A DNA stretch of 64,000 nucleotides from Eunapius fragilis (lineage: Eukaryota > Porifera > Demospongiae > Spongillida > Spongillidae), in contig OY811991.1 in assembly GCA_963681505.1 (NCBI GenBank), forward strand, positions 1,367,501-1,431,500, in the 5' to 3' direction. The notes under the pieces are model-generated. The model saw nothing but the letters and a program-made list of their open reading frames with translations, was not told the origin of the DNA and did not search any database. This document shows positions 27,633 through 57,562 of this stretch, one piece after another. Positions within the stretch are counted from its first letter, which is position 1. Every line of letters starts with the position of its first letter. A program made the position numbers and the translations under genes.

Positions 27633-27664
<32 letters not shown>

Positions 27665-27784: not shown

Positions 27785-27892
27785 CTGAGGCGATTGAGAC
27801 ATCAAATGCCGCTGTTTTGCCCAAGAACCAGTTAGGTAGCAAGATGTCAGCTGGGCGGAGACTTGCTGTGGTCACAAGTAAGGTTGTTGCCC
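27785..27892 (-). mobile_element. Fragment of the endonuclease-like retroelement family
   Basis: On the minus strand it reads as RPADILLPNW then GKTAAFDVSIA, the hallmark of the family's C-terminal domain. In unit 2 the same copy is longer (50030-50384), so unit 1 lost roughly 640 bp here. Confidence 0.75.
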
Positions 27893-28503
27893 ACTTCTAC
27901 CTGTATTATTATTATTTAAAGAATACACTAATAGAATAACGTCATAGATCAGGAACTACGATAGTAGTTCTTGTATAGGAATTGACCCGGGTCGTGAAAT
28001 CATTAAAAAAAACGCGACCCGCGTATAACTCGCGTACCGAGAAACGGATAGTGTTGCTCTTTGTTGCTATCGAACCAGAAGGCAAAGACGGTCATTTATT
28101 CCAGTCTTCAAACTGTTTGCTTTAAGAGAACAAAAAAAGTTCGTGTTTACCTCGTCCCCAGGCCAAATCTTCTCCGTCGTCAACGTCGTCGTCGTCATCT
28201 CGGGTGAGTATAACTTCGGTTTTAAAGAGCGCCAATTATACCAATCGCTTTAGAATCTCCTGGAAGGACATCTGCAAGTATCAGATGTAATAAAAAATAC
28301 TATCTATGATAAAACTGACATACTTAATCATTACGTAATGCGTAGTGTTATTAGAAGCGTTCCCATGGCGACATTTACGTATATTTAGAATTGTGCAAAC
28401 AGAAGAGGAGAGCTAAACAAGAGACGACGAGTTAGAATTCCCCCGCGTTCCTTACAGTGATCCCAAACAAAAGCGGGCGTCTGCTCGTGACGGTAATTGA
28501 AGC

Positions 28504-28534
<31 letters not shown>

Positions 28535-28601
28535 TTGCCAGTATTAATAATCGATAAGAAATGATAATAAAAAATAGAGGAAACAAGTAACGAAAAGCAT
28601 T
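27893..28601 (+). other. Duplicated non-coding block with TCG repeat
   Basis: At 28,163-28,202 a stretch flanked by AG and a GTGAGT donor would read AKSSPSSTSSSSSR. It is kept in unit 2 (50,735-50,776), so it may be an exon or simply a TCG microsatellite. A G homopolymer of about 29 bases is at 28,503-28,531. The TTAA at 28,544-28,547 is the empty site for the piggyBac-type element of unit 2. Confidence 0.5.
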
Positions 28602-28855
28602 CTCTAACGAGAAAGTTGGTGGGATATAGGAATTGGAGGCAAAGGTGGTGTAAAAAGGAAGGGAACAAGGTTTTTGGAAAAGAAAAATGAGATATTTAGC
28701 ACATGTACATGTAACAACCAAAAGAAGTGCTAAATATAGGATTTTTGTCTCATTTTCCTTTTCCAAAAACCTTGTTCCCTTCCTTTTTATACCACCTTTG
28801 CCTCCAATTCCTATATCCCACCAACTTTCTCGTTAGAGAATGTTTTTCTTTACTT
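28602..28855. mobile_element. Foldback MITE, same family as 12272-12534
   Basis: Arms begin ACAAGTAA and continue CATTCTCTAACGAGAAAGTT, pairing for about 110 bp around a short loop. The duplicate in unit 2 (51648-51893) has lost part of its left arm. Confidence 0.85.
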
Positions 28856-28924
28856 GTACAATTAGAATACATACATACATCAAAACCTAAACACAGAGTT
28901 ATGGTGATGAATTGTCACCTTCTC

Positions 28925-29119
28925 GGAGTGAGTATCCACCCCATAAGAGGAGCCCAAGCATTGGCTCACACAAAGGTCATATTCAGGTGGCCATACAGGC
29001 AGGAGACCACCTTGGACTTGGGGGTGTTGGTCCTTGTGGCAAGGCGTGATGCAAGCCGTGAAAAAGCTTGAACAGCTCTGCCCCAAGACTCTGCCACAAG
29101 GGGAATGCACGTCCACCCC
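28925..29119 (-). mobile_element. Retroelement copy, C-terminal fragment
   Basis: The minus strand reads AVQAFSRLASRLATRTN and SLYGHLNMTLVRANARA-like text, the last part of the family's endonuclease-like domain. The unit 2 equivalent is 51950-52159. It is truncated at 29,120 by the tail of the next minus-strand copy. Confidence 0.75.
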
Positions 29120-29574
29120 AGTGTATTTATTTATTTATTTTATTTATTTATTTTAATCGAAATATTGGTTATAACAGGGAATACACAAAGTATACAAAAT
29201 GATAACTATATCTACATGACATCACAAGGGTATATTAATAATAATAGAGTACAGTATATACAAACAATGATACACAAAACTCTCAAGCAGGTCCATTGTT
29301 GTGGCCTCTGAGTTGTACCACGCAATGAAAGCATGAGCAATTGGTTCGAACTAAGAAGAGACTTAACCTGCAATAAATAGAATTCAGCATGGTAGCCTTA
29401 GTGGAATTGGCTTGTGCCCCTAGACGTACTGATAGTTGTGAAAAAAAAAAAAAAAAAAAACTGGCCTGCTGTTCTTCCCCATGCACCAAATGTCTCCACC
29501 ACCAGTGGAACGCACTTCCAATCCAGTTCAGAGCAGATGGGATCATTAAATGTGTGTTTTCTTTCCTCTGTCTT
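29120..29574 (-). mobile_element. Retroelement copy with ATTT tail and internal poly-A
   Basis: The minus strand reads CSELGWKCVPLVVETFGAWG, then an A/T homopolymer (29,442-29,460) and LVRTN. Its 3' end is the run of TATTT units at 29,123-29,153. The unit 2 equivalent is 52160-52612. It is an inactive fragment. Confidence 0.75.
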
Positions 29575-30832
29575 CGCACTTGTAGTGGCTTTTGCAAACT
29601 AGCTCATCTTGCTCGGGCTACTCCACCTCGCTGTCCGTCAAAGCTCTTGAGCTTTTTGACCTGGATGTTAGGGACTGTCTGTCTCAGAGTACATCGGTAG
29701 ACATGACTGATGTATCATGGAATCAGGCCCAGCTAAGTTTGAGTAGAGGTGGTTTGGGTCGGCGGTCTCTCATGTTTCATGCTCCAGCTGCCTTCATTGC
29801 CTCCGTTTGTTCATCTGGCTATGGCCACCTGTCGCTTACCCACCTCACCTATGCTGTGGAGATGTTCAACGAATGTGTAGCACCAGCCGATAAGATCTCT
29901 TTGGACTCAATCACATCCTCCAACGTAAAGCAAAAGATGCTGTCATCCAAATTGGATGATTTTCAATTTCAAGGCCTGTTTAACATGTCCTCAGTTGCTG
30001 ATGGGGCACGGCTATTACCAATCTCTGCCCCTCATTCCTCTTCATGGCTGTCGGTTGTCCCCTCAGAAGGTCTTAGTCTCCATTTCGAACCTAATCAGTA
30101 CAATGTTGCCCTCAAATGGTGGCTAGGGTTGGACACATCTTGTGGCTCTAGTTGCTCCCTCTGCCCCGACTCTATCCTGGATCCCCTAGGCCACCATGCT
30201 TCCACATGCAAACAAGGGGGAGATGCAGTACATCGCCATAATCTGCTGAGGGATGCCTCTGCCGATTCCTGTCGCTTGGCTCATCTAGGTGTCAAAGTTG
30301 AAGTAGGCAATAACTTAACCCAAGACCATGATCACACTAAACCCGCAGACGTTCTCGTCCACAACTGGTCTCTAGGCAATCCTGCAGCTTTTGACGTCTG
30401 TGTGACCTCTCCGCTTAATTCACTTATCCTTTCAGAAGCGGGAGTGTCTTCGGGAGCGGCTGCTCATGCATCTGAGATCAGAAAGCACAACAGCAATGAT
30501 GCCAAATGTGGGGAATTAGGATGGGTTTGCATCCCATTGGTTGTTGAGACATATGGTGCTGGGGTCAAGAGGCTGTCAAAAGTTTTGCTCAGTTGGCATC
30601 TACGCTGGCAATCGCCTGCTCCAAGCCAAAGTCAGTCGTTATAAATGATCTTTACGGCAGGCTGAACACTTGCCTCATAAGATCAATTTCTTCGGCCATC
30701 CTTAGTAGGATGGTGTCCACATGAATTTTGCGTTTGTGTGTTATTTATGTATCAGTGTATGGTATTTAAATTAATAACATGAATATTAAGACAAAAAAAA
30801 TAAAAAAATAAAAATAAAAATAAAAAAAATAA
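29575..30832 (+). mobile_element. 5'-truncated non-LTR retroelement copy
   Basis: Encodes the end of the reverse-transcriptase region (GGLGRRSLMFHAPAAFIASV), then the zinc-finger-like CSLCPDSILDPLGHHASTC and the endonuclease-like core (KPADVLVHNW, AFDVCVTSPL, LGWVCIPLVVETYG). A frameshift near 30,560 breaks the end. The copy ends in an A-rich AAAAAT-type tail (30,790-30,830). The unit 2 counterpart is 53280-54658, which is longer at its 5' end. Confidence 0.85.
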
Positions 30833-31352
30833 TCTCCAGAGTCTGCCATTGAGTCTCCTCCCTCGCAGAGATCTCTCTCCCATAAGCTGGATAGCTTGAC
30901 TTGCAGTAGTTTGTATGACTCAGCTTCTCCAGCAAACAAAGCTCGCCTCCTCTCTGCCTCTGCTCCCTTGGCCACTTCATGGGTTTCAGTCCTTCCTTTC
31001 GGTGAGCCTGGCCTGCATCTTGATCCTAGAGAATTCCGCACAGCTATTTCGTGGGGGCTGGGTTTAGAAACAACAACAGCCTCCTGCTGTCTGCTATGTC
31101 CTGAAATAGCTTTGGACCCCCTGGAGCATCATGCGTTGTCATGCAGACGTGGTGGTGATGTGGTTCTCCGACATAACCAGCTGTGAGATGTCTTTGTAGA
31201 TATTTGCCACAAGGCAACCCTTGGAGTGAGGATCGAGGCATGTAGTGCACTTACCCCTGACCTTTCTAGGTCTCGCCCTGCGGATGCCCTAGTGAACAAT
31301 TGGATAGGTGGAAGCTCTGCCGCTTTTGATGTAACTGTGACGTCTGGTCTTG
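30833..31352 (+). mobile_element. 5'-truncated retroelement copy
   Basis: Begins directly after the tail of the previous copy. It reads ASPANKARLLSASAPLATSW, CCLLCPEIALDPLEHHALSC, then RPADALVNNW and SSAAFDVTVTS, and is cut at 31,352. A stop lies after HNQL in this copy; unit 2 (54659-55611) is open there and runs to its own 3' end. Confidence 0.8.
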
Positions 31353-34300
31353 AATCACTCTCCCAATACACTCTGCTACCATCTATACGCAGTTCTGTTG
31401 CGCAGCCTGCAGGAGGGAGGAAACAGTGTTCTGTCTCTGGGTGTTTGGATTTAGTTGCATACCATGTGGCGCCACCATATGGATAGCCACTTGAAGGGAA
31501 TTCTTCCTGGTGCTGTTCCCGACACATGGCTTTTGGAACATGGTTTATCTGTGTGCCACTCCTGTATTAAGCTAGTTTCAACCTCACACCTTGTTTCTCA
31601 TCAACAAAAGTGTGTTCCAGCAATTTCCATCTCAGTTCCACCCCCATCTGATACCTCTGCTGATTTGCCCTCCTTAGAGGAGGTGTGCAGCCTTAGGTGC
31701 CCAACAATTCGATTTGTGCCCAACAAAGCAAAGCCTGCCTTTGCACGGGTATTCTCAGCTGCTCTCATGGCTGTCATCTTTGAAAATTCAGTTTCAGCTT
31801 GGTTAAGACTGTTCATGCTGCCTAAGTGTGTTCTCCCCAGTGCAAAACATGGTGGGCGTCACAACAAGCCTGTTCCAATTGAGTCGCTATGTGCAATGTG
31901 GGCAGATGGTAAAATAAGTGATCTGTGGCACAAGGTAGTTTCTCGCTCTTCATGTCCAAAACAGCCTTCAGTACCAAAAGGTGATACAGTTAAGAAGAGG
32001 GTGAGCTCAGCAATATCATTATTTCAGGATGGTCTCTTTGGTAAGGCTTGTCAAGTTCTTGTCTCACCTGGAGTAGCACCTAATAATGCTGAAACTTGGA
32101 GTCTTTTAGTTTCCAACATCCTGAGTGTGCCTGTCCTTCTGTTCCCACCTTGCCATCGGTGGGTACTGTATCCCGCCTGATTTTAATCTGATGGCGATCC
32201 TTATGTCTTTCCCAAAGCTGACAGCAGCAGGACCTTCTGGTTTACGCATCCAACATATAATAGATGCATCAGAGGTGCCTCAACAGACACACATCCTCCA
32301 GTCACTAAGGGGTGTCATCAACCTTCTTGCTGCTGGCAGAGCACCACCTGAGGTGTCCACTTTCCTTGCTGGGGGCAGTTTGACAGCTCTTAACAAGTCA
32401 AAATCTGGCAGCATCTTTGATATTCGTCCTATTGCTGTAGGAGAAAGCTTACGCCGTTTGGTGGGTAAATGTCTTTGTGCTGCAGTTAAGACAAAGGCAG
32501 CAGAGTTCTTCAAACCATTTCAGTTTGGTGTCGCTTGTTCTTTTGGAGCAGAAAAGATCGCATATGGTTTGAGAGCATGTATTGAGAACCACTGGCTTGA
32601 TGATGATTTTGTTGTTCTAAAGGTGGACATGAAGAACGCTTTCAACATGGTCTCACGTCAGGCTCTGCTCTCTGAATGTAGCACTCACTTCCCTGAGCTG
32701 CTTCCATGGGCCAGTTGGTGTTATAGCCAGCATCCCATCCTGTGGCACCCATTAGGTCGCCTGCGTTCGGAGCAAGGTGTTCAACAAGGTGACCCTCTAG
32801 GCCCTCTGTTTTTCTCCCTGGTTCTGAACATCCTGGTTTCAAAAATCACATCCAGTGGAGTTTGTGCAGACTTGTCCTACCATGCCTGGTATCTGGATGA
32901 TGGTGTGTTAGCAGGTCCCAGATCAGCGGTTCTCAGAGCCCTCACCATTATTCAGGATCAAGGTCCTTCTCTGGGTCTCATCATAAACATTCCTAAATAT
33001 GTGAGATCTTCAGCCGTAGTGACATCAGCTCATTTCCACCAGCTATGAAAGGATCCAACTGTCCCAATTTGGTTATTCTGGGCATTCCCATTGGTGACCA
33101 AGCATTCTGTTCTGCCTTTATTTCAGGGAAGCATGGGGAGGCTAAAGCTCTGTTGCTGCAACTTGAAGAAGTTGGATCAGTTGATCCACATGTGGCATTA
33201 TCACTCCTTCGGCAGTGTGCAGGTTTCTGCAAGATGGCTCACCTTGCCCGTGGTACTCCACCCTCCCAAGCTATGTCAGCCCTTAAGGCCTTTGATCTTG
33301 ACATACGCAGTTGCTTCTCACGTTGCACTGCTGTTGACACCTCTGATCAGGCCTGGCAGCAGGCAGAGCTCGGTTTGAGTAGGGGTGGCCTTGGTTTACG
33401 CTCTATTTCTCGTCACTCATCAGCAGCGTATATTGCATCCCTGAGCTCATCTGGTTTTAGTACGTCCTCTCAACAACACTTAAACATGCAGTAGAGGCAT
33501 TCAACTCCCTTGTTCCAACTTCTGATGCAGTCTGTGTAGAGGATGTATTGACATCACCCTTACACCAAAAGATGCTATCCACAAAAGTGGACAACCACCT
33601 TTTCAATCTGCTCCTTGGGAACTCCTCCCCCGCAGATAGAGCTCGCCTGCTTTCAGTCTCCTCCCCACATGCTGCCTCATGGATCTCAGTTATTCCTTCT
33701 GAGGCTGTGAAGAGGGGAATTGCCTACCGACTCAGGGGTAAGGGTATCCTGGGAGTCCACAAACCTGTTGTAAAGGTGGACTGAAGAGGACAGATACTTA
33801 CCAGACGAAGGGGAAAGGCCTGGAACAAATTGGCCCAATTGGCATCAATTCAATGGGACATATCGCACCAATTGGGCCCGTGGAACCAATTGGCCCAATT
33901 GGAGGGGCTTGGCCTCCATCTGGAGTCGTCTGAAATTCAGGTAGCCATCAAGTGGTGGCTGGGCCTTGACACCTCTAGTGGTGCTATGTGTGCTCTGTGT
34001 CCAGGGAGTGTGCTCGATCCCCTAGGCCATCACGCTCTCACCTGCAAGCGAGGTGGTGATGTTGTCTCTTGTCACAATAAACTCCGAGACACCCTAGTGG
34101 AGGCCTGTCGCAGGGCCCACTTGAGTGTTAAGGTGGAGGCAGGATGCAACCTCACTCTTGACCATAGCCACTCCCGCCCAGCTGACATCCTGGTACCCAA
34201 CTGGTCTGTGGGCAAGCCAGCGGCCTTTGACCTATCTGTGACCTCACCGCTCAATTTAAATGTTTTGTTGGAAGCGGGACTCACAGCTGGTGCAGCCGCC

Positions 34301-34688
34301 AGAGCTACAGAGCTGAGAAAGCATGAGGCAAATGATGGGAAGTGCAGGGAGCTTGGGTGGGTCTGTGTCCCCATGGTCGTTGAAGCTTATGGGGCTTGGG
34401 GTGCTGAAGCCATGGAGTCATTGTCGTGTCTGGCCTCTCGCCTAGCAACCAGTTTGAACAAGGCAAAGGCAGCTGTCCTCAATAGGTTGTATGGCAGGCT
34501 AAATCTTAACCTTGTTAAAGCAAATGCCACTGCAATGCTGTCTAGATGCTTTGCCTCGGACATGTACACTGTTTAGATTAGGTAGTTCTTTATTTTATTA
34601 TGATATGTCATGTTATAATTTTCACTGTCATATCTTTAATGATAAATTTACGTGAATGCAAAATAATAATAAATAATAATAATCAATC
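31353..34688 (+). mobile_element. Nearly complete non-LTR retroelement with endonuclease-like C-terminus
   Basis: The longest copy. It opens with a zinc-finger-like region (CHSCIKLVSTSHLVSH, about 31,545) in frame 31455-32180. A frame change near 32,150 leads into a reverse transcriptase (32125-33048) with RPIAVGESLRRLVGKCL, motif A KVDMKNAFN, motif B GVQQGDPLGP and motif C WYLDDG. Further frame changes follow (33045-33494, 33548 onward). The C-terminal domain (33900-34576) has CALCPGSVLDPLGHHALTC, RPADILVPNW, GKPAAFDLSVTSPL and LGWVCVPMVVEAYGAWG, resembling a zinc knuckle plus PD-(D/E)xK nuclease as in R2-type elements. It ends in an AATAATAAT tail. It is inactivated by shifts and a 200-bp insert (33705-33903). 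Confidence 0.85.
33705..33903. other. Insert with repeated CCAATTGG palindromes in the retroelement
   Basis: Relative to sister copies (for example 53890-53910), about 200 bp are inserted between 'ccttctgagg' and 'ggcttggcctcc'. The last 80 bp hold CCAATTGG or CAATTGGG-type motifs five or more times, some in back-to-back form. No coding capacity or known family. Confidence 0.7.
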
Positions 34689-35685
34689 ACAGCTGAGGCG
34701 GTTCTAGCCTGCCCCTCTCTGCAGAGAGCTCTGTCTAAGAAGCTGGATAATCATGCTTTCCAATCTCTGCTATCTTCCTCCTCCCAAGTAAATAAGGCTC
34801 GAATCCTTTCGGTTTCTGCCCCTCATGCAGGTTCTTGGATTTCAGCAATCCCTTCAACTGGTCTGGATTTGCATCTGGACTCTGCTGAATGCCAGGTAGC
34901 TCTTAGATGGTGGTTAGGTCTTGACACGTCAGGAGGCTCCCTGTGCCCTCTTTGTCCTGACATTGCCCTTGACCCTCTAGGTCCCCAAGCAGCCTCTTGC
35001 AGACATGGTGGTGATGTGGTTGCACAGCACAACCGCTTGCGAGATATCTTTGCCAACTTCTGTCGCCGGGCCCATCTTTCTGTGAGGGTCGAAGTGGGGT
35101 ATGGCTTAGCTAGGGACCATATCAACTCCCGTCCAGCAGATATCCTGGTTCAGGGATGGGACAGGGGAAAGCCAGCAGCCTTTGACATCACAGTCACTTC
35201 ACCCCTTACTCCCGTATCCCTAAACAATGCCAGTGCATCGGTGGGGGCAGCAGTGTATGCTGCTGAATGCAGAAAGCATGCAGCCAATGACACCAGGTGC
35301 CAGGAGTTAGGATGGTTGTGTATCCCCTTAGCTGTGGAAATGTATGGCAATTGGGGGAAGGAGGCTCAGAGTGTTTTTTCCCGGCTCGCTTCTCTGCTTT
35401 CCATCAGCCAGGCACCCCCAAACCTAAAATGTTGTCTGAAATCTATAGCCACCTCAACTTGTCCCTGGTGAGGTCTGTGGCAAGGGCCATCATGGGAAGG
35501 GAAGCTGTCCAAGGGTAGGTTAGTGGAACGGTAGGTTGATTAGTTGTGTTTGTAAGTAGTACTGTAGATTCATTAATTATAAAATAAATAGTATAGCAAT
35601 AATGTATCTGCATTGTACATGTATGTATGTATTTTAATTAAGAGATAAGGGGGTCGTCCAAATAATAATAATAACAATGACCACC
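34689..35685 (+). mobile_element. 5'-truncated retroelement copy with AAT tail
   Basis: Starts inside the element at QRALSKKLDN directly after the AAT tail of the preceding copy. It reads LCPLCPDIALDPLGPQAASC, RPADILVQGW, GKPAAFDITVTSPL and LGWLCIPLAVEMYGNWG to about 35,470 after a late frameshift, and ends in CAAATAATAATAATAAC. It is clearly diverged from its neighbours at sequence level. Confidence 0.85.
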
Positions 35686-36330
35686 AGCTGGATCCTCTGG
35701 GGCATCATACAATGACATGCAAACAGGATGGTGATGTTGCTGTGCGCCACAATGCCCTGAGGGATGTTTTTGCCCAATTTTGTCATAGGGCTCGGCTGGG
35801 TGGGCAACATCTTGGTGCCCAACTGGTTGAGTGGCAAGCCAGCTGCTTTTGATTTAACCGTAGTCTCTCCGCTTAACTCCAAGACATTGAATGAAGCGGG
35901 AGCTACAGGTGGGTCAGCAGCTGGTAATGTCGAAGCTCGCAAACTTACAGCCAATGATCAGAAGTGCAGAGAGCTAGGTTGGGTCTGTGTCCCCTTGGCA
36001 GTAGAGACCTATGGTTGTTGGGGTGAAGAAGCGCAGTGCTCAGTCTCTCACCTGGCAGCCCGCCTGGCCCTGCAGCTGCAGTGCAGCAAGTCAAAGGCCA
36101 TCACAAACATCCACCAGAGGCTTAACCTCACCTTAGTTCGGTGCAATGCTAGAGCCTTGCTCTCCCGGTCAAGGTTGCAGCATGCAGAGGACATCGGTTG
36201 AAGGTAGCCTTCACAGTGTGAATTGGTGTGTGGATAGGGTTTAGGGTGTTTATGGCATGTTTGTTGTCAGTGATTGTAAAGGTTCATTAGTAATATTATA
36301 TAATAGTGAAGTGGTTTGGGGCATGAAGGA
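35686..36330 (+). mobile_element. 5'-truncated retroelement copy
   Basis: Begins at LDPLGHHTMTCKQDGD, loses part of the region before NILVPNWLSGKPAAFDLTVV, then continues LGWVCVPLAVETYGCWG and stops at 36,201. Its 3' region is AT-rich (TAATATTATATAATAG). Confidence 0.8.
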
Positions 36331-36795
36331 CATAGAACACGGCCAGCAGACATCCTTATCCCTCATTGGGATTTGGGCAAACCAGCAGCTCTAGATCTGA
36401 CTGTCACATCTACGCTAAATTCAAGTACGTTAATGGAAGCGGGTGTGACAATTGGATCTGCAGTTCTGGCAGCACAATGCTAATGATGCCAAGTGCTCAG
36501 AGCTAGGCTGGACATGTATCCCCATAGCAGTGGAGACTTATGGGTGCTGGGGTGGAGAAGCCATGCAAACTTTATCACGCCTTGCCTCTCGCCTAGCCAC
36601 CAGGGGAAATTGCTCCAAGTCCCATGCAACCTGTCTATTGTATGGCAGGCTTAGCCTGACTTTGATGCGAGCCAACGCACGGGCACTCCTGTCTCGAGCA
36701 GGATCATCTGTGGAAGATCCATAGAACTTAGTGTAATATTGTAATGTATTTGTGTAATGTACTCTATAAAATAATAATAATCTGTAATTTTTTTA
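36331..36795 (+). mobile_element. Short 5'-truncated retroelement copy
   Basis: Starts at the RPADIL motif (ACGGCCAGCAGACATCCTTA), has one frame break near 36,450, and continues LGWTCIPIAVETYGCWGGEA to a stop at 36,724, followed by AATAATAATAATCTG. Confidence 0.8.
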
Positions 36796-37021
36796 TCCAT
36801 TAAACTACTATATATACTTATAGGAATACATGAATACATAATTCTGTACTTTTATATTGTACACAAATGTGAAAACTTATTCTAAAAAAATCATCGCCTG
36901 GACCATCCTTACAGCCTGCATACCTTGCTAACAGAGCTCTAGCATTTGCCCGTACCTGAGTTATGCTCAGATTTCCATACACTCAGGTGATAGCCTGGGA
37001 TTTGGATCAACGCAGCTGACA

Positions 37022-37420
37022 AAAATAATAATAATAATAATAATAATAATAATTCCCAATTTGTGCCATTCTGCTCACCTTTCTGTACGAGTTGAAGTTG
37101 GTCGAGGTCTCTTGGGTTCTCACAATTATTCATGGCCAGCTAATGTGCTTGTTGATGGATGGGATAGGGCTAAGCCAGCTGCTTGTGATGTCACCATAAC
37201 CTCTACTCTTACCCCAGCCACCCTGAATGAAGCCAGCATCCATGAAGGAGCAGCTGCTTTAGCACGCAGCCAATGACACTAGATGCAAGCACTTGGATGG
37301 ACTTGCATTTCTCTTGCAGTTGAAACATTTGGGAATTGGGGAAAAGAAGCACCAGTGTTTTTTCTCATGCTTGGCTACTCTGCTTGTGCCTAAAAAGCAG
37401 CAAAAGCCAATTCAAGGAGG
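37022..37420 (+). mobile_element. AAT repeat and broken retroelement copy
   Basis: An AAT run (about 37,022-37,052) leads into a copy beginning FCHSAHLSVRVEVGRG-like text, then NVLVDGW, AKPAACDVTITSTL and WTCISLAVETFGNWG, with two or more frame breaks. The upstream 36,796-37,021 is AT-rich with an inverted piece reading as the family's LVRANARAL end on the minus strand. Confidence 0.75.
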
Positions 37421-42724: not shown

Positions 42725-42760
<36 letters not shown>

Positions 42761-46937: not shown

Positions 46938-47622
46938 TCAACCAACTAAGTAGAGGTCTGAGACTTTAGCACGGGGACCTGCCCTTGCAAGAAATGCTCT
47001 GGCATTCGAGCGCACAAGGGAAAGGTTTAGTCTGGAATAAATGATGTCCAGAGTGGTGGAAGTGGAGGAGTTAACCTGGACTGAAAGGCGGGAAGCAAGT
47101 TTCTTGAATGTGTTAGAGGCTAGTTGGCCCCAGGCTCCGAATGATTCAACAACAAGGGGTATGCAACTCCAGCCTAGTTCTTCACAGATCCCTGAATTTG
47201 CTTGTATCTTTCGCTGTTCTGTGGCAAAAGCTGCAGAGCCTGCTGTGTGTCCCGCTTCGGAAACTATGTCAGGTTTTAGCGGAGACGACACAGATAAGTC
47301 GAACGCAGCAGGTTTGCCATTGATGCCCCAGTTGTTGACTAGTATGTCCGCAGGTCTAGATTGTTTCTGGTCATGGCCAAGACCACTGCCAGCTTCCAGC
47401 TTAGGGTTGTATAAGGCTCTCTTGAAGAGGTGATGCAAGGTGTCGCGAAGGTGGTTGTGACGCGCAATTACATCACTACCCCTCTTGCAGGTTAGGGCGT
47501 GGTGAGCCTCAAGGGCTTTGATTGGGCAAAGGGCACACACAGAGCCAGGCTCACATAGCCGAATACCAAGCCACCATTTGATGGCAAACTGACATTCGGA
47601 TGGTGTTAAATGCAATTGTCAC
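46938..47622 (-). mobile_element. Inverted C-terminal half of a retroelement copy
   Basis: The minus strand encodes LHLTPSECQFAIKWWLGIRL, VCALCPIKALEAHHALTC, RPADILVNNW, GKPAAFDLSVSSPL and LGWSCIPLVVESFGAWG to LYLVG. It is 225 aa open. Its start joins in protein sequence to the end of the adjacent plus-strand fragment (47625-47757), showing one element broken and inverted. Confidence 0.85.
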
Positions 47623-47624
47623 AG

Positions 47625-47757
47625 AATCTTGAAGACAAACAGTTTCAATCTCTCTTGCAATGCAGCACCCTGGCTGACCGAGCCCGACTTCTTTCCGTCT
47701 CATCCCCACATGCTAGCTCTTGGTTGCGTGTTACCCCATCACCAGCCTTAGGCTTGC
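47625..47757 (+). mobile_element. Plus-strand piece of the same retroelement copy, at the duplication junction
   Basis: Reads LLQCSTLADRARLLSVSSPH and ASSWLRVTPSPALGL, then abruptly continues into Nudix exon 2 sequence (CAAGAGACTCGCAC). The missing continuation (HLTPSE...) is the inverted piece at 46938-47622. Confidence 0.85.
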
Positions 47758-48836
47758 AAGAGACTCGCACGTAAGTCGCCTCAGCTGCGAGTAGAGCTAT
47801 TCATTCAACATCTCATGCAGTATCGTTAGAAACGTGGACGAGGAGAGGGAAGAGAGGAATATGGCTGGAAATTCCTATAGCTCGCTCCAACCTTATCCCC
47901 ATAGCAACAGAGGTAAAATAAAATTCTTAAATACTTATAATGCACCTTATACTTTGTCAATCAAGTTGGGCTTTCGCTTTCACCATGCTCTTGAGAGGTA
48001 CGTTATGCTCACCAAGTGGCTGCCAACTGACCAGCCAAACCATCTTCCAACCTTTGCTACACACTGCACAGGTACAAGGGAACACCATGTATATCAATTT
48101 GAATATTTAATCACAGGTGCTGTGGGGTTTGTGGTCAACGACAAACATGAGGTGTTGTTGGTGCAGAAGGGTGTTCACAGCAGTGGGCCACACCTCTGGA
48201 AGTACCCAGAAGGCGTGGCTAATTTAGGTGAGGAAGCCATACCCTTCAATATCAGTGCCTTATCCATTCGTTGCCAGGGGAACACATAGGTCAAACTTGT
48301 ACCAGGGTGACCTTTGAGGAGATGAGCATCAATACAGAGTTTGTTGCCCTCCTCACTATCAGGCACACACACAACTACCACTTTGGGGCTGATGGGATAT
48401 TCTTTACCTGCTCTGAACACTGGTGTCACCATGGATACCTGCTATTAATGTAAGGTCCCCAGGCCCATGGCTTGGCAGGTGTTATGTAGCATGGTGGGGC
48501 AGGGGCCCACATAAACATAAATGTCACCACCTGTTTGGTGAAGGTCACTAAGTAGCCAACACAAATGTTACCTCTTCATGCAAGCCTAGAAGTCACATCA
48601 AATGGTAATGTTTCTCATTTTCCTCATAACCCTCCCCTCCCCCCTCCCTCCCACCCCCCCAGGTAGATGAGTATATAGCTGATCCCAGCACCACACCAGT
48701 GGATCGTATGGCGGCCGAGGCATACAGAGATGGGCTGAACCAAGGATGGTCCATCCACACCCGTTATTACCATGGCAATAGCCATGCTGCCTACAGGGCC
48801 CAACGTATGGAGTCCAAAGTAAGCAGTGAACATTAG
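47757..48836 (+). pseudogene. NUDT6-like pseudogene (headless duplicate)
   Basis: Begins in the last 14 bases of exon 2, so the start codon, exon 1 and most of exon 2 are missing. Exons 3-5 are intact in frame. In the Nudix box exon, EETGI has become EEMSI (conserved Gly lost). An 11-bp deletion after FFTC shifts the frame, and about 20 bp are lost before the next donor. The last exon (48663-48836) remains nearly identical to the parent. It cannot make the parental protein. Confidence 0.9.
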
Positions 48837-49469
48837 AATAATAAGTGTACTGTTGGATGACATCCCATCTGTGTATGTATGTGTAGAGACTGATTTTTAA
48901 CTTTTTAAAAATAAGCAATGAGTTGTGTAATCTGAAACATAACACAAATGAAATCCATAATTAAACTGAAAGGAAGAAAATTACAAAGAGACAACAACAA
49001 CACATAAATACATAAGCACTAGCACATACTGGAATGCACTTTCACTATAGTAAGATAAATTATAATAGCTCACATGCTCCATTTCAGACAAGAACTATGA
49101 GTGCAAGGGAGATGGGAGTGAGTAATATTAATGTGGGGAGGAGGTGGGTAACATTAGTCAGGGTTTAGTGTGCAGGCAGTGCTGGCAACACCTGACCAAA
49201 GCAACTAAAAACCTTTTAGCGGAAATAGGTGAAAATGGATTGCAGATTCGAATTTGGGATAAAAAGTTGACATCTCACGGAGGAGTACCTATCTCCACCA
49301 CCCCCCCCCTCCACACACCTACACACCAGGGACACACCTGCACACCAGGGACACACCTGAACAATGTTAGTGTTAACTGACTGTACAGTGTGCCTGTGTG
49401 GTGTGTGGTCTGAAATGTGTTTGTGTTGTGCATGTGTGTCTGAGTGTAAAAGTTGTGGTGCGTGTATGT

Positions 49470-49503
<34 letters not shown>

Positions 49504-49505
49504 TT

Positions 49506-49553
<48 letters not shown>

Positions 49554-50029
49554 AAAAAGCCAAGCACAGGTAGCAGTCTTAAGGAATCTTAGTAAGTACT
49601 AACCTTTGTTGTAGTACTACAGAACTTTCGATGTGATCACTGAAAGCAGACATAGAACTGAATCTTTAAAATCTGCTTCCCTTTGTTGTGCTTGCGACAA
49701 ATACTCCTCGTGGAGCCATGGGATGGGACATCAACACTAAGGGTTACTGTACAATAAAATGTCATGTTCATATTATTTGCTTGTATTACAATATGGAATA
49801 TCGAAAAAGGTGTACAAGAAAGAGTAAATACAGAGAATAAATGAATGAATAAGTACGGAAGCAAGAATAAATACACAATATTAATAATCTACATTATTAT
49901 AATAAGACTTCTTAGCTATATACAACATCACATAAACACAAGTAAAAGTATGTTCTTCTCTATGGTGGTGATGCTACCCTTGATAGTATAGCAGTGGCAT
50001 TGCCACGAACCAGGTGAGCATTCAACCGA
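48837..50029. other. Unit 2 DNA downstream of the Nudix pseudogene
   Basis: Shared with unit 1 to about 49,627, including a TG repeat (49,460-49,552) that is more regular than in unit 1. The rest (49,628-50,029) is AT-rich and absent from unit 1 because of the deletion there. No gene seen. Confidence 0.55.
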
Positions 50030-50384
50030 TCATAAAAACCATTGAGCACCACCGACTTTGGCTTGCCCATGGAGGTGGTGAGTCTTGAGGTGATAGAAGA
50101 GATTATGCAGAGGGCTCTTCACCCCAGGCTCCATAGGATTCAGCCACCATGGGGGCACACACACACCCAAGTTCAGAACATTTGGGGTCGTTGACAGGTG
50201 TTTCCTTGCCTCTGTGACCTGAGTAGCCAACACACCCGCTTCCAAAAGGGTTAGAGGGCTAAGCAGTGAGGCGATTGAGACATCAAATGCCGCTATTTTG
50301 CCCAAGAACCGGTTAGGTAGCAAGATGTCAGCTGGGCGGAGACTTGCTGTGGTCACAAGTAAGGTTGTTGCCCACTAGGGATTC
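50030..50384 (-). mobile_element. Retroelement fragment, minus strand
   Basis: Reads RPADILLPNRFLGKIAAFDV, SPLTLLEAGV and EARKHLS with a broken end. It is the fuller counterpart of 27785-27892. The following bases contain an inverted repeat, GGGATTCCCCCTCCCTCACC and its complement, about 80 bp apart (50,380-50,475), a further small hairpin insertion. Confidence 0.75.
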
Positions 50385-51070
50385 CCCCTCCCTCACCCTC
50401 CCCACTTTCTTTTTACTAAGTAACCAACACTCCATGAAATGAAATAAAAAGGGGAGGGTGAGGGAGGGGGAACCTCCCTCTTTTAAAGAACACTGCAATG
50501 GGTTTTTCGGGAACAGATACTGCAGCCATCGTAGTAAAAAAAAGGCGGTAGCAATGACAGATAGATTTAAACATGATTTGAACATTTTAAAAAGGCGGTC
50601 GCAATGTCAGCTGGTTTTCACTTCACATTTAATATCTAAAATTTTGTTTCAATATTTCTTGAATTCAATTAATTAAAGTGGGGGGGGGGGGGGGGGGACA
50701 TAAGTGCCCAAAAAAGGTTTTACCTCGTCCTCAGGCCAAATCTTCTCCGTCGTCAACGTCGTCGTCGTCTTCTCGCGTGAGTACGGATAGGAATGGTTTT
50801 AAAGAGCGTCGATTATACCAGTCGCTTTAGAATCTCCTGGAAGGACATCTTCAAGTATCAGATGTATGAATAAAGCATAAAACTGACAACGTAATCATTA
50901 CGCGTAGTGAAGCGTTCCCATGGCGACATTTACGTATATTTAGAATTGTGCAAACAGAAGAGGAGAGCTAAACAACGAGACGACGAGTTAGAATTCTCCC
51001 GCGTTCCTTACCAAACAAAAGTGGGCGTCTGCTCGTGACGGTAATTGAAGCGGGGGGGCACTTGCCAGTA
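50385..51070. other. Duplicated non-coding block of unit 2
   Basis: Contains the hairpin noted at 50,380-50,475, a G homopolymer (about 50,679-50,697) and the TCG-repeat block at 50,735-50,776 shared with unit 1. No gene is supported. Confidence 0.5.
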
Positions 51071-51074
51071 TTAA

Positions 51075-51621
51075 CTCTTTGAACGCCAAGTGCATATATG
51101 CATACATGCTCACTAAATGACAATAATCTGCCTCACCATTCATGCATGTGGTGTGGATCAAAATCACCTTGATTACCATTGTAGATGATACAAGTGCAAT
51201 ACTGACCATTGTAAGTAACCTTATAGTCATACAAATATTTGAACATATTCGGGCCAAGTGTAAAAACATTTTGTGTGTTCAAATTGTAACTTGCTGCATG
51301 GTACCTTTTGTTGCTACAACCCATTAACAAAAGATGGAGGAGTGATATACTACACTGATCTGAGATACACATTCTTGTTCTTGGAGTACATAAAGTGGTG
51401 CATTAGTGAAGTGAAGTGAGGTCATCCGAATAATGGGGTTCTTTAGGCAGTGCGAGAAGACGTCATACATGTACTTATATGGTTACAAGTGCAGCAAGCA
51501 TACGCATGCATCATCAGTTGTGACTGATCAACACATTCCTGCAAGCAAGATCTAAATCATGCATGAATGGTGTAACGTTTGTGTGTGCATGCATACATAA
51601 AAGAACTTGGCGTTCAAAGAG
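51075..51621. mobile_element. piggyBac-type foldback, 547 bp, with empty site in unit 1
   Basis: Inverted ends CTCTTTGAACGCCAAG, flanked by TTAA (51071-51074) and TTGA (51622-51625, one substitution). The unit 1 sequence GTATTAATAATCG at 28,541 shows the unoccupied TTAA. The TTAA target is diagnostic of the piggyBac superfamily. No transposase frame; non-autonomous. Confidence 0.88.
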
Positions 51622-51647
51622 TTGATAATCGATAAGAAATGATAATA

Positions 51648-51893
51648 AAAAATAGAGGAAACAAGGAATTGGAAGCAAAGGTGGTGTAAAAAGGAAGGGA
51701 ACAAGGTTTTTGGAAAGGGAAAATGAGACAAAAATCCTATATTTAGCACATGTACATGTACCAACCAAAAGAAGTGCTAAATATAGGATTTTCCTTTTCC
51801 AAAAACCTTGTTCCCTTCCTTTTTACACCACCTTTGCCTCCAATTCCTATATCCCATCAACATTCTCGTTAGAGAATGTTTTTCTTTACTTGT
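51648..51893. mobile_element. Foldback MITE, duplicate of 28602-28855
   Basis: Same arms as the unit 1 copy, but the outer part of the left arm (the segment ending CGAGAAAGTT) has been deleted. Confidence 0.82.
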
Positions 51894-51949
51894 ACAATTA
51901 GAATACATACATACATCAAAACCTAAACACAGAGTTATGGTGATGAATT

Positions 51950-52159
51950 GTCACCTTCTAGGAGTGAGTATCCACCCCGTAAGAGGAGCCCGAGCATTGG
52001 CTCGCACAAGGGTCATATTCAGGTGGCCATACAGGCAGGAGACCACCTTGGACTTGGGGGTGTTGGTCCTTGTGGCAAGGCGTGATGCAAGCCGTGAAAA
52101 AGCTTGAACAGCTTTGCCCCAAGCTCCATAAGACTCTGCCACAAGGGGAATGCACGTCC
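51950..52159 (-). mobile_element. Retroelement C-terminal fragment (duplicate of 28925-29119)
   Basis: The minus strand reads ESYGAWGKAVQAFSRLASRL and VSCLYGHLNMTLVRANARA. It is open here over the AYGAWG motif, where unit 1 has lost a few bases. Confidence 0.78.
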
Positions 52160-52612
52160 ACCCCAGTGTATTTATTTATTTATTTTCTTAATCGAAATAT
52201 TGGTTATAACAGAGAATACACAAAGTATACAAAATGATAACTATATCTACATGACATCACAAGGGTATATTAATAATAATAGAGTACAGTATATACAAAC
52301 AATGATACACAAAACTCTCAAGCAGGTCCATTGTTGTGACCTCTGAGTTGTACCACGCAATGAAAGCATGAGCATTGGTTCGAACTAAGGAGATACTTAA
52401 CCTGCAATAAATGGAATTCAGCATGGTAGCCTTAGTGAATTGTCTTGTGACGTACTGATAGTTGTGAAAAAAAAAAAAAAAAAACTGGCCTGCTGTTCTT
52501 CCCCATGCACCAAATGTCTCCACCACCAGTGGAACACACTTCCAACCCAGTTCAGAGCAGGTGGGATCATTTTCTTTCTTCTGTCTGCCTAACTGCAGCA
52601 CCTGCAACCACA
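52160..52612 (-). mobile_element. Retroelement fragment (duplicate of 29120-29574)
   Basis: Reads CSELGWKCVPLVVETFGAWG, a poly-F/poly-A interruption, and SIYCRLSISLVRTNAHA. The tail end is TATTTATTTATTT at about 52,168-52,182. Confidence 0.78.
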
Positions 52613-53279
52613 CCCGCTTTGGACAAAACGCTTGATTTAAGCAGAGAAGTGATCAATGGCTGCAGGCTTATCACCAGGACCAGCTTGGAATTAGAATATC
52701 TTCAGGACTTATAAGCCTCCTTTCATGGCCCAAACCAGCACCAGGCCTTGTAAGCCTCCTTTCATGACCCAAACCAGCACCAGCTTCCAATTTTGGGTTC
52801 AACATAGCTCTTTTGCAGAGCATCACAGAGGGCAAGCCACTACATTTCCCCCAAATTTACAGGTAACTGCATGGTGTGCGTCCAGTGCTTTAATTAATCA
52901 GGACAATAAGCACATACCCTTCCTTCTGGTTTTAGAGGCAGACCAAGCCATCATTGGGAGCCATGTCAACCTGGGGAAGGAGTTCGTGAGGCATGCACAG
53001 AAGAAATGGAGAGCATACAAGCCTGATCTGCAAGGCTGCCAGAGGTATCATGTGAACTTGCCCGTGTATGGGCATAGCATGGTTTAGCCCTAAACCATAT
53101 TATAGTTTAGTTTAGTACCTAAACCTAAACCTGTTGTTTAGGACCTAAACACTCGTCATACTACTAAAATTTGTACTCATTTACTTCATAAGTTCATATA
53201 TCCTTGTGATGTAATGTAGGTATAGTTATCATTTTGTATACTTTGTGTATTCTCTGTAACGTTATAATAATAGGGATCC
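52613..53279. other. Unit 2 segment deleted from unit 1
   Basis: Contains a broken retroelement stretch and short direct repeats ('cctcctttcatggcccaaac' and a sister about 45 bp later near 52,715-52,780), plus a small TTTAGG/CCTAAA-rich patch at 53,080-53,150. No gene seen. Confidence 0.45.
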
Positions 53280-54658
53280 CCATTGGTGACCTAGACTTCT
53301 GTACCACCTTTATTTCTCATAAGCATTGCTTGGCTAAACAACTCATGCGACAGATAGAGGAAGTAGGCGCACTAGACCCTCAAGTAGCTTTATTGCTTCT
53401 TCGCACTTGTAGTGGCTTTTGCAAACTAGCTCATCTTGCTCGGGCTACTCCACCCTCGCTGTCCGTCAAAGCTCTTGAGCTTTTTGACCTGGATGTTAGG
53501 GACTGTCTGTCTCAGAGTACATCGGTAGACATGACTGATGTATCGTGGAATCAGGCCCAGATAAGTTTGAGTAGAGGTGGTTTGGGTCTGCGGTCTCTCA
53601 TGTTTCATGCTCCAGCTGCCTTCATTGCCTCCGTTTGTTCATCTGGCTATGGCCACCTGTCGCTTACCCACCTCACCTATGCTGTGGAGATGTTCAACGA
53701 ATGTGTAGCACCAGCCGATAAGATCTCTTTGGACTCAATCACATCCTCCAACGTAAAGCAAAAGATGCTGTCATCCAAATTGGATGATTTTCAATTTCAA
53801 GGCCTGTTTAACATGTCCTCAGTTGCTGATAGGGCACGACTATTATCAATCTCTGCCCCTAACTCCTCTTCATGGCTGTCGGTTGTCCCCTCAGAAGGTC
53901 TTGGTCTCCATTTCGAATCTAATCAGTACAATGTTGCCCTCAAATGGTGGCTAGGGTTGGACACATCTTGTGGCTCTAGTTGCTCCCTCTGCCCTGACTC
54001 TATCCTGGATCCCCTAGGCCACCATGCTTCCACATGCAAACAAGGGGGAGATGCAGTACATCGCCATAATCTGCTGAGGGATGTCTTTGCCGATTCCTGT
54101 CGCTTGGCTCATCTAGGTGTCAAAGTCGAAGTAGGCAATAACTGAACCCAAGACCATGATCACACTAGACCCGCAGACGTTCTCGTCCACAACTGGTCTC
54201 TAGGCAAGCCTGCAGCTTTTGACTTCTGCGTGACCTCTCCGCTTAATTCACTTATCCTTTCAGAAGCGGGAGTGTCTTCGGGAGCGGCTGCTCATGCATC
54301 TGAGATCAGAAAGCACAACAGCAATGATGCCAAATGTGGGGAATTAGGATGGGTTTGCATCCCATTGGTTGTTGAGACATATGGTGCATGGGGTCAAGAG
54401 ACTGTCAAAAGTTTTGCTCAGTTGGCATCTAGGCTGGCAATCGCCTGCTCCAAACCAAAGTCAGTCGTTATAAATGATCTTTATGGCAGGCTGAACACTT
54501 GCCTCATAAGATCAATTTCTTCGGCCATCCTTAGTAGGATGGTGTCCACATGAATTTTGCGTTTGTGTGTTATTTATGTATCAGTGTACTGTATTTAAAT
54601 TAATAACATGAATATTAAGAGAAAAATGATAATAATAAAATTAAAAAAATAAAAATAA
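53280..54658 (+). mobile_element. Retroelement copy (duplicate of 29575-30832)
   Basis: Starts IIGIPIGDLDFCTTFISHKH and is open to VGNN (54145), where a stop (TGA) breaks it, then resumes SPLNSLILSEAGVSS and LGWVCIPLVVETYGAWGQE to the natural end at 54,553. It ends in an A-rich AAAAAT tail. Confidence 0.87.
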
Positions 54659-55611
54659 AAATAATCTCCAGAGTCTGCCATTGAGTCTCCTCCCTCGCAG
54701 AGATCTCTCTCCCATAAGCTGGATAGCTTGACTTGCAGTAGTTTGTATGACTCAGCTTCTCCAGCAAACAAAGCTCGCCTCCTCTCTGCCTTTGCTCCCT
54801 TGGCCACTTCATGGGTTTCAGTCCTTCCTTTCGGTGAGCCTAGCCTGCATTTTGATCCTAGAGAATTCCGCACAGCTATTTCATGGTGGCTGGGTTTAGA
54901 AACAATAACAGCCTCCTGCTGTCTGCTATGTCCTGAAATAGCTTTGGACCCCCTGGGGCATCATGCGTTGTCATGCAGACGAGGTGGTGATGTGGTTCTC
55001 CGACATAACCAGCTGCGAGATGTCTTTGTCGATATTTGCCACAAGGCAACCCTTGGAGCGAGGATCGAGGCAGGTAGTGCACTTACCCCTGACCTTTCTA
55101 GGTCTCGCCCTGCAGATGCCCTAGTGAACAATTGGATAGGTGGAAGCTCTGCCGCTTTTGATGTAACAGTGACGTCTCCTCTTACACCTGTGTCACTTCA
55201 TGAATCAACCATTACTGCACGAACAGCTGCACTACTGGCAGAGCAGAGGAAGCACCAGGCAAATGACCCCAAGTGTGATACCCTTGGATGGAAATGCATC
55301 CCTCTTGCTGTGGAGAGCTATGGGAGCTGGGGTCTTGAAGCCAGGCAGGCTTTTTCCCATTTGGCCTCGCGCCTGTTCTTTGGCATAGGACACCAGAAGT
55401 CGAAGCTCTTGGTAGAGATCTATATGGGAGGCTAAACGTAACCCTGGTGAGGTGCAATTCCAGAGCTCTCCTAAGCAGAGCATGCAATTTGTTTTAGTTA
55501 CTCTATATATGTATATAGTGTATTAGTCATAAGAATAACGATGCCGCCTGATATAAATTGTTTACTCCTGGATATGTATTATGTATTATATTATTATAAA
55601 AATAATACTTA
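54659..55611 (+). mobile_element. Retroelement copy (duplicate of 30833-31352, more complete)
   Basis: Open for 235 codons: CCLLCPEIALDPLGHHALSC, RPADALVNNW, SSAAFDVTVTSPL and LGWKCIPLAVESYGSWG. A late frameshift near 55,420 precedes LVRCNSRALLSRACN. The tail is TATTATATTATTATAAAAAT. Confidence 0.85.
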
Positions 55612-56816
55612 AGCAGAGGTGGCCTGGGGCTTCGTTCACTAGCTCATCACTCTAATGCAGCCTTTATCGCCTCCATCAGTACTGCAGGCCTTGCCTCACC
55701 ATCAGATAATTTCCTGGCTGATACGGTCAATTCCTACAATAGGTGTGTTCCCCCTGAGAGTGCAATTAATATTAACAGTCTTGCATCTTCTCCTTGCCGA
55801 CAACACACTCTATCAGCTGCATTAGAAAACATTCAATTTAACTCTCTTCTATCCCAGAGCTCTGTGGCTGACAAGGCTCGTCTCCTGTCTATCTCCTCTC
55901 CCCATGCCTCTGCTTGGCTCTCTGTAGTACCATCTCCAGGCCTGGGTCTAAGCTTAGACCCCAACGAGCACCAAATGGCCATCAAGTGGTGGCTGGGGCT
56001 AAACACCTCACCTGGCTCACCTCCCTGTGCATTGTGTCCAGAACATCCCTTGGATCCCCTAGGTCACCATGCAATAACATGTAAGAGAGGTGGTGATGCT
56101 GTATCCAGGCACAACAAGCTCAGGGATGTAGTGCTTCAAACCTGCCATCATGCCTGCATCAGCGCCAAGGCAGAGGCCGGTAGTGGACTAGGACATGAGC
56201 TTTGGAACACACGCCCTGCTGACATCCTAGCTTCCAATTGGCTCTGTGGCAAGCCTGCTGCCTTTGACCTTACTGTGGTGTCTCCGCTTAACCCTACTCT
56301 TATCTCTGAAGCGGGTCGCACAGCAGGGTCAGCAGCGGTTGCTGCTGAGCTAAGGAAGCACTCTGCCAATGATGCCAAGTGTTCCGAGCTAGGGTGGACA
56401 TGTATTCCCCTTGTGGCCGAGTCATATGGAGCCTGGGGCAATGAAGCGATGCAAGCTTTTTCACGGCTTGCATCATACCTTGCCACAAGGACCAACTCCC
56501 CCAAGTCCAAGGTTGTCTGCAGCTTGTATGGCCGCCTTAATTTGACTCTTGTGCGAGCCAATGCCCGAGCCCTCCTCTTACGATGTGGCTGTTCCCTTCA
56601 GGAGGGGGATAGTTCCTCTTTGTCACTTTCATAGCCAGTGTGTCTCAGTGTGTCTGGACATGTATGTATGTATTTTGAATATTATTTTAATATATGTCTA
56701 AATGTATTATGTATTCTGTATATTATTATTTGTATATGACCTTGTACCATCATATATGATGACAATATATTATACTCCTGTATGTAATCATGTTTTCAAT
56801 AATAATTCAAATAATA
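55612..56816 (+). mobile_element. Retroelement copy specific to unit 2
   Basis: Begins in the reverse-transcriptase thumb region (RGGLGLRSLAHHSNAAFIAS). The 256-codon frame then reads CALCPEHPLDPLGHHAITC, RPADILASNW, GKPAAFDLTVVSPL and LGWTCIPLVAESYGAWGNEA. It ends in CAAATAATAATAATAA, which meets the inverted tail of the next copy. Confidence 0.85.
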
Positions 56817-57562
56817 ATAATAATTATTATTATTGAATAGTACACCACTCAAAAGAACAAAGAACTAACTACACTACACTACACTACACACAAATGTCCT
56901 AAAGAACTACTACCCTGCCCATGATGGCCCTGGATATTGATCTAACTAGAACCATGTTCATTCTGCTGTAGATATCAAACAGGGCAACAGATTTGGAGCG
57001 ACCTTGGTGGATGGACAGTAAAGATGCCAGGCGTGAGAACACGTTTTGGGCCTCCTTCCCCCAATGCTCAAAGGTCTCTACGGCCAGTGGGATGCACACC
57101 CACCCCAGCTCCTGACACCTGGCATCATTGGTGGAATGTTTTCTACATTCTGCAGCATGGGCTGCTGCCCCTGAGGAAGTACTGGCATCTCTTAAGGTGG
57201 CAGGAGTGAGGGGTGAAGTGACCGTTATATCAAAGGCAGCAGGCTTGCCTCTATCCCAACCCTGAACCAACACATCAGCTGGACGTGTGTTGATATGATC
57301 TCCAGATAGGCCATATCCCACTTCAACCCTTACAGGCAGGTGAGCTTGGTGGCAGAGTTCGGCAAAGGTGTCCCTAAGGTGGTTGTGACGGGTGACCACA
57401 TCTCCACCATGCCGGCATGAGGTTGCATGGTGGCCAAGAGGGTCAAGTATAAGTACGGCCCCAGGGCAGAAGGGGCAAGAAGAAGCAGTTGATGTGTCGA
57501 GGCCTAGCCATCATCTGATAGCCACTTGGCACTCTTCTGAATCTAGGTGCGTGTTCAAGCCT
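56817..57562 (-). mobile_element. Retroelement copy, opposite orientation, tail to tail
   Basis: The minus strand reads CPFCPGAVLILDPLGHHATS-like text, RPADVLVQGW, GKPAAFDITVTSPL and LGWVCIPLAVETFEHWGKEA to IMGRVVVL. Its TTATTATTATT tail (56,823-56,834) abuts the AAT tail of the plus copy. Confidence 0.85.

Follow-up and report, generated by a model that had tools for sequence, protein, structure and literature searches.

Nests of R2-like retrotransposons in the sponge Eunapius fragilis are probably built by insertion into AAT repeats, many of them the tails of older copies

In a stretch of 64,000 nucleotides (nt) from the sponge Eunapius fragilis (assembly GCA_963681505.1, contig OY811991.1, positions 1,367,501 to 1,431,500 of the forward strand; hereafter the window), truncated copies of a non-LTR (long terminal repeat) retrotransposon family follow one another head to tail and are joined at AAT repeats. 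A sequence-only reading of this DNA had described the nest and proposed that new copies insert into the tail repeats of older ones; our analysis partly confirms the observation and supports the interpretation. The fragments belong to an abundant superfamily of restriction-like endonuclease (RLE) elements with many subfamilies, which very probably inserts into AAT repeats and whose copies, since they end in AAT, become landing sites for one another. We assign a probability of about 0.85 to this reading, according to which AAT-targeted insertion with self-supplied tails best explains the nests, one nest of the window having been copied once segmentally in addition.

The sequence-only reading had predicted that 5′ junctions of the family would be enriched in AAT repeats throughout the genome. 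The survey was done with the 998-nt fragment at 34,688 as query; 48 genome matches were listed, and 20 regions were fetched around the best of those with ~84% identity, at least six lower-scoring ones of that class being left out. Fetched genome loci are labelled L0xx, and C1, C2 and C21 are contigs. Junctions of the young subfamily, whose copies are 94.7-100% alike, were read against the full-length relative L013, and 22 distinct ones were kept. Set aside were L012 as a duplicate locus, position 1 of L016 as an edge case, and position 4,588 of L024, where the match is short and older. The predicted enrichment was found: 20 of the 22 lie at AAT, where 19 copies start within -5 to +1 nt of an array of at least two units and one (L028) starts 37 nt away from an array. 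A wider set, comprising the window and 58 loci, contained 158 copies, of which 20 were dropped at locus edges and 22 as near-duplicates. Here, an AAT array of three or more units is present at 53 of the 116 kept copy starts and an ATT array only at 7, compared with 0-5 (AAT) and 0-1 (ATT only) of 103-114 positions shifted by 200-600 nt, and with 1.7% and 1.5%, respectively, of random positions in the same sequences. At all four places where the exact L013-type 5′ end occurs in the genome, AATAAT is found within 12 nt upstream. The AAT junctions recur on many contigs and are not insertions into 28S rDNA.

Where these targets come from can be seen on the upstream side of the young junctions. Counting either a copy annotated on the same strand no more than 450 nt away or at least 55 nt of match to the 3′ untranslated region (UTR) of another locus, 15 of the 22 have another copy's 3′ end there and 7 do not. 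The 55-nt limit was chosen after the rows had been seen; two of the 15 (L015, L027) depend on AT-rich matches of 98 and 60 nt, and three of the 7 (L014, L018, L023) have shorter AT-rich matches upstream. Because five of the 22 junctions have AAT with no clear other copy upstream, the target is the AAT repeat in general. The earlier idea of a self-seeding target thus needs to be widened, but the family's own tails seem to be the main supply. An AAT array follows within 350 nt after the open reading frame (ORF) in 70 of 96 copies, duplicates included, while 5 have ATT only and 21 neither (random windows, 6.9%). Among 68 distinct copies with enough downstream sequence (25 near-duplicates dropped), a same-strand copy follows within 450 nt in 37, with an AAT array in the gap in 28; a tail-to-tail copy follows in 8 and neither in 23.

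As the fetched loci had been chosen for relatives, a listing of places along contigs is the less biased test. On C1 up to 13.4 Mb, the C-terminal motif of the superfamily lies on the same strand within 4 kb of 13 of the 18 (AAT)8+ arrays (2.4% expected); an opposite-strand motif is near one of the 18, and 5 are not near a motif. In the same part of C1 the motifs form 20 adjacent pairs less than 5 kb apart, 13 of them same-strand, where 3.6 pairs are expected. For neighbouring arrays on C1 and part of C2 (first 100 of 834 positions), all 13 pairs are same-strand. In the part of the genome listed, long AAT arrays are mostly located at this family.

An example of a filled and an empty site is presented with the array at 37,021-37,053, which is unbroken in the window. 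L002 together with L059 (C21:1,474,118-1,479,700) is a 96% duplicate of window positions 34,795-37,880, and in it the corresponding array is interrupted by an additional copy of ~980 nt, whose truncation lies near protein position 944. Five AAT units come after this copy, and the sequence then continues with the next copy of the window. One array in the window therefore faces two in the duplicate, and the extra copy, whether gained or lost, is bounded by AAT on both sides, exactly inside the nest's array as tail targeting would have it. A third version of the site, sought to separate insertion from excision, was not found among the 41 matches listed, and the fetched loci gave no second clean filled/empty pair; what separates L005 from the window seems to be a deletion or a different cut point. 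Positions 1-1,502 of L002 are an inverted copy of window 37,279-38,637 and adjoin a direct copy of 34,795-37,050; judged by its sequence, L002 is an inverted duplication at the nest.

The nest fragments represent single-ORF, R2-like non-LTR retrotransposons with an RVT_1 reverse transcriptase (RT), and the C-terminal motif of the superfamily occurs 1,693 times in the 219 Mb genome. Three Wnt places in this genome and 18 homeodomain matches, five of which lie on a single stretch of contig C16, suggest a sponge host. RVT_1 was present in all five ORFs scanned; for the longest copy of the window (31347..34684) it is matched with E 5.8e-13, and the R2 protein 9nl3 with E 2e-4. In the RT profile search R2 chains scored best and LINE-1 (long interspersed nuclear element) ORF2 came next. 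An alignment of 22 C-terminal sequences displays a conserved Cys/His cluster and RPAD..AAFD. The structure model of the core derived from it reached a pLDDT (predicted local distance difference test) of 86.9, and among known structures the R2 C-terminal region ranks top (Foldseek, VIA-align). The model points to a C-terminal zinc finger and a PD-(D/E)XK-like endonuclease with the R2 fold, as is characteristic of RLE-type elements, which also have an RT of the non-LTR kind and 5′ truncation with a fixed 3′ end, both found here. The C-terminal profile matched no chain among the PDB sequences up to E 5, and a longer C-terminal piece modelled from 8 sequences was poor (pLDDT 51). The N-terminus is Cys-rich and carries finger-like Cys/His motifs, as read from alignment A2. 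A Myb family was not found in the five ORFs with Pfam up to E 1; the published Myb domain was detected by profile-profile search (HHpred).

In the window itself, tblastn and the reading of junctions showed that the nest of many pieces with different 5′ cut points is real, as are the tails of AAT or A-rich A(n)T units. Successive plus-strand copies form two runs, one starting at 53,273, 54,665 and 55,606, the other at 31,347, 34,688, 35,675, 36,306 and 37,054. An overall preference for the plus strand, as claimed earlier, is weak, with ~11 plus-strand and ~9 minus-strand fragments. That the next copy begins at the preceding tail was seen, although the six junctions first listed are five distinct ones: those at 30,833 and 54,665 (given as 30,832 and 54,658) count as one because the two blocks are segmental duplicates. 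The position 34,688 was kept, whereas 35,685, 37,052 and 55,611 were corrected to 35,675, 37,054 and 55,606. Clean AAT junctions are those at 34,688, 35,675 and 37,054, and 30,833/54,665 is A-rich AAT. Weak ones are 55,606, with merely weak AAAAATAATA, and 36,306 and 53,273, both with degenerate AAT. Plus-strand copies of one nest are ~64-71% alike over their aligned parts and hence are not tandem duplicates of each other; near-identical copies, named earlier as a sign of tandem duplication, were not seen within the nest. The fragments and tails are as follows.

27786..27895, minus: fragment, duplicate of 50,267-50,376 (98.2%) and 81% to the reverse of 34,147-34,230; by sequence comparison it corresponds to the 5′ part of the copy 49,978-50,375
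28933..29121, minus: fragment of the C-terminal end (tblastn)
29467..29622, minus: fragment (tblastn)
29571..30832, plus: 5′-cut copy with A-rich tail (tblastn, protein 833-1223), duplicating part of 53,273-54,664; with the following part 97.0% identical to 53,398-55,183
30833..31347, plus: next copy, beginning directly at the preceding tail (same junction as 54,665) and cut at 31,347
31347..34684, plus: longest copy of the window, with finger region, RT, endonuclease and 3′ UTR, frame broken (tblastn, protein 223-1223)
34660..34683, plus: AAT tail array of the longest copy, landing site of the next
34688..35659, plus: truncated copy belonging to the L013-type subfamily and used as query in surveying the genome (tblastn, protein 953-1229)
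35660..35672, plus: AAT tail array, landing site of the next copy
35675..36305, plus: truncated copy (tblastn)
36306..36781, plus: truncated copy with AAT tail at 36,766-36,781, 5′ junction merely AT-rich
36782..37020, minus: short piece between two AAT arrays, by eye like the element's C-terminus and 3′ UTR on the reverse strand
37021..37053, plus: AAT array of ten units, the empty site relative to the 96% duplicate L002+L059
37054..37400, plus: truncated, decayed copy starting at the ten-unit array (tblastn, protein 1077-1188)
46971..47618, minus: truncated copy (tblastn)
47616..47759, plus: short fragment, head to head with the preceding copy (tblastn)
49978..50375, minus: truncated copy (tblastn and sequence comparison)
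51969..52172, minus: fragment (tblastn and sequence comparison)
52338..52945, minus: decayed copy (tblastn)
53273..54664, plus: truncated copy with A-rich AAT tail and weak AAT at its 5′ junction (tblastn)
54665..55605, plus: truncated copy whose start adjoins the tail before it, a junction that duplicates the one at 30,833 (tblastn)
55606..56824, plus: truncated copy with an open C-terminal frame of 342 amino acids and an AAT tail at 56,809-56,824 (tblastn)
56896..57567, minus: truncated copy, closest to the L013 type (tblastn)

For the 240-nt minus-strand piece at 36,782-37,021, ten of the 41 matches listed end at the same point, and it is possibly a small element that derives from a LINE and has a constant 5′ end, similar to a SINE (short interspersed nuclear element). 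In L010, L018, L023 and L037, copies lie head to head, and their 5′ ends are separated by a single AAT/ATT repeat common to both or by a palindromic (ATT)n(AAT)m; L017 likewise contains a head-to-head pair, with an ATT array. An ORF at 47,795-48,289, perhaps an exon of a host gene, matches Nudix_hydro (E 2.4e-6) and, weakly, NUDIX.

Colinear segmental duplicates were found at 27,000-31,351 and 48,873-55,183, with pieces of 94, 98, 84, 92 and 97% identity and an inverted piece of 88%. Further colinear blocks pair 38,975-40,120 with 57,753-58,983 and 45,428-46,607 with 58,982-63,266. Taken together, the blocks of 27,000-46,607 and 48,873-63,266 suggest one large segmental duplication whose halves differ in element content. 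Positions 59,067-61,225 hold a satellite-like array of ~91-nt units in ~23 copies (Tandem Repeats Finder, TRF), which is related to 45,509-45,740.

We propose that the predicted R2-like endonuclease would nick the ATT strand of an AAT array and that the freed DNA end would serve as primer at the AAU tail of the element's RNA. Copying would usually stop early, and the truncated 5′ end would be joined to the AAT remaining on the upstream side. Such an insertion would flank the new copy with an AAT array on either side, so that every copy could offer fresh targets and copies of different subfamilies would, with time, accumulate head to tail. Most young copies start at AAT in the element's own strand sense, as this mechanism predicts, and the head-to-tail order and the cross-seeding between subfamilies that follow from it are both seen. 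In 24 chosen pairs, neighbours often differ in subfamily and decay, so insertion was repeated over time. Repeated insertion in place of tandem amplification had also been the earlier claim, and it holds apart from the segmental duplication, which accounts for part of the repetition and had been missed.

The head-to-tail pairs could alternatively be made at once, if the RT runs off one RNA onto the tail of another during a single event of target-primed reverse transcription; the intervening AAT would then be the tail of the second RNA. Such end-to-end template jumping is described at low levels for R2 in vitro (PMC10499050). Stops and frame changes, counted without scaling by length, are equal in 11 of the 24 pairs, and several pairs are unbroken in both members (the first and second copy of L013, the L016 pairs, L052, L056). 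However, decay is unequal in the other 13, with the upstream copy more broken in 7 and the downstream copy in 6, which indicates different ages without a gradient. L020 has three frame changes upstream and none downstream, L009 and L025 have three upstream and one downstream, and L055 and L003 are unequal in the opposite direction. Moreover, five of the 22 young junctions lie in AAT with no clear element upstream, and the extra copy of L002/L059 was gained or lost alone. We therefore consider template jumping an unlikely explanation of the nests, which may account for some equal, young pairs.

Growth of the nest by copying of DNA, tandem or segmental, is very improbable and was rejected as a full account: the segmental duplication of the window, to which the inverted piece of the nest flank in L002 may be added, explains one of the six listed junctions, whereas the copies within the nest are too unlike and cut at different 5′ points, neighbours in the wider sample often belong to different subfamilies, and AAT junctions are found on many contigs. 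Least credible is that insertion was random and scattered copies were gathered by recombination between their AAT arrays, which are common to many copies and could pair. Excision by such recombination could also account for the filled/empty pair. Gathering of this kind would not place AAT directly before a truncated 5′ end, and since 19 of 22 young copies start within a few nt of an array, the element's own insertion must have met AAT.

Two 5′ ends of the window are not AAT junctions: the one at 29,571 probably marks a deletion with respect to the duplicate, and the one at 31,347 is the limit of the duplication's similarity. Several observations speak against AAT-targeted insertion as the source of the nests or do not follow from it. 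Among the young junctions, L017 is bounded on either side by an ATT array, and at L026 neither AAT nor ATT is present. In the wider set no more than the 53 of 116 starts carry an AAT array, and 7 have ATT only; many of the remaining starts could, by their appearance, be old copies, chain splits or rearranged ends. The filled/empty pair could also be an excision from the window by recombination between two AAT arrays, and an empty site for a free microsatellite was not found. An age gradient along the nests, sought in the 24 chosen pairs, was not found either; later insertion between existing neighbours would allow decay in both directions.

Among known systems, Dong/R4 elements (Bombyx Dong) have the same RT with a C-terminal restriction-like endonuclease and the same (TAA)n target. 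Dong is reported to target (TAA)n in an ostracod and, according to the authors, likewise in most insects, molluscs and cnidarians (PMC7998251), and to sit in (TAA)n of the rDNA spacer (PMC2887409). Microsatellites and genes for rRNA are both described as targets of RLE elements, one of which, Togen, is found in (TG)n (PMC4640811). The 5′ end of Dong carries a self-cleaving ribozyme (PMC3774820), whereas none was recognised with Rfam in the sponge element. Dong-like N-termini have a diverged Myb domain and no zinc fingers (PMC7998251), in contrast to the Cys-rich, finger-like N-terminus of the sponge element. The agreeing target does not suffice for us to assign the element to the R4/Dong clade. 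R2 (R2Bm, R2Tg) differs in target, which is 28S rDNA and not AAT repeats. Membership among Zepp-like elements implies an L1-type RT with an APE (apurinic endonuclease-like) endonuclease, whereas the endonuclease predicted here is C-terminal with the R2 fold, and R2 outscores LINE-1.

Zepp and the Zepp-like LINEs of green algae show the same nested insertion into existing copies, and the resulting tandem arrays consist mostly of 3′ ends; as an L1-type LINE, Zepp forms one cluster per Coccomyxa chromosome (PMC8226300), while the sponge nests are scattered and their landing sequence is a microsatellite tail. The same head-to-tail, same-direction arrays, with the 3′ end of one element preceding the next, are described for HeT-A, TART and TAHRE of Drosophila telomeres, of which HeT-A and TAHRE have sense promoters in both UTRs (PMC5537684). 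These extend chromosome ends; the sponge insertions are internal. Among the papers listed, judged by titles and the first lines of abstracts, none that fits was found on RLE elements of sponges or on elements nesting in their own microsatellite tails, and the literature listed included no abundant RLE superfamily of many subfamilies with its own tails as main target. Targeting of (TAA)n and self-nesting are already in print separately (Dong, Zepp), as precedents of the behaviour.

A further property of the family is its short 5′ leader. L013, L014 and L016 have a common 5′ end ~16-18 nt before the ATG of a conserved Met-Pro-Cys-Cys start, and L052, L053, L056 and L058 have another one, 21 nt before the ATG; both ends are located in or close to an AAT-rich stretch. 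Upstream of both, the sequence differs between copies; exact matches in the genome number 4 for the L013-type and 5 for the L052-type end. L052 and L056 are each preceded by a 3′ end of the L052 type, the tails of which differ; the flanks of L053 and L058 are AT-rich and not clean AAT. As these ends lie 16-21 nt before the putative start codon, almost no leader is left for a promoter or ribozyme. An HDV-like (hepatitis delta virus) 5′ ribozyme was not matched in Rfam at the gathering score in ten sources, the power of Rfam for Dong-like ribozymes being unchecked, and at E up to 10 the 5′ regions of L052 and L013 gave unrelated weak rows only. The L044 and L050 subfamilies have longer N-termini, and their 5′ ends lie beyond the fetched DNA. 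By analogy to HeT-A, nests might be working units in which a new copy is transcribed from the 3′ UTR or tail of its host copy, so that self-seeding would provide both landing site and promoter. We hold this to be rather doubtful. Near-full-length copies with such short leaders lie behind another copy in 5 of 9 cases by eye (6 with L058), which is not above the 15 of 22 for young junctions. If true, a HeT-A-like life cycle would have evolved inside chromosomes by an R2-like element.

For the biology of the family, the finding means that a transposon insertion keeps, and can multiply, its own target, so that copy and target numbers can rise together, away from genes. This would explain why the long AAT arrays examined mostly adjoin the element and match its strand. 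With its many subfamilies and a duplicate in filled and empty form, Eunapius fragilis offers a naturally replicated system for studying how RLE elements choose microsatellites, and the same system bears on the transcription of an element with almost no 5′ leader.

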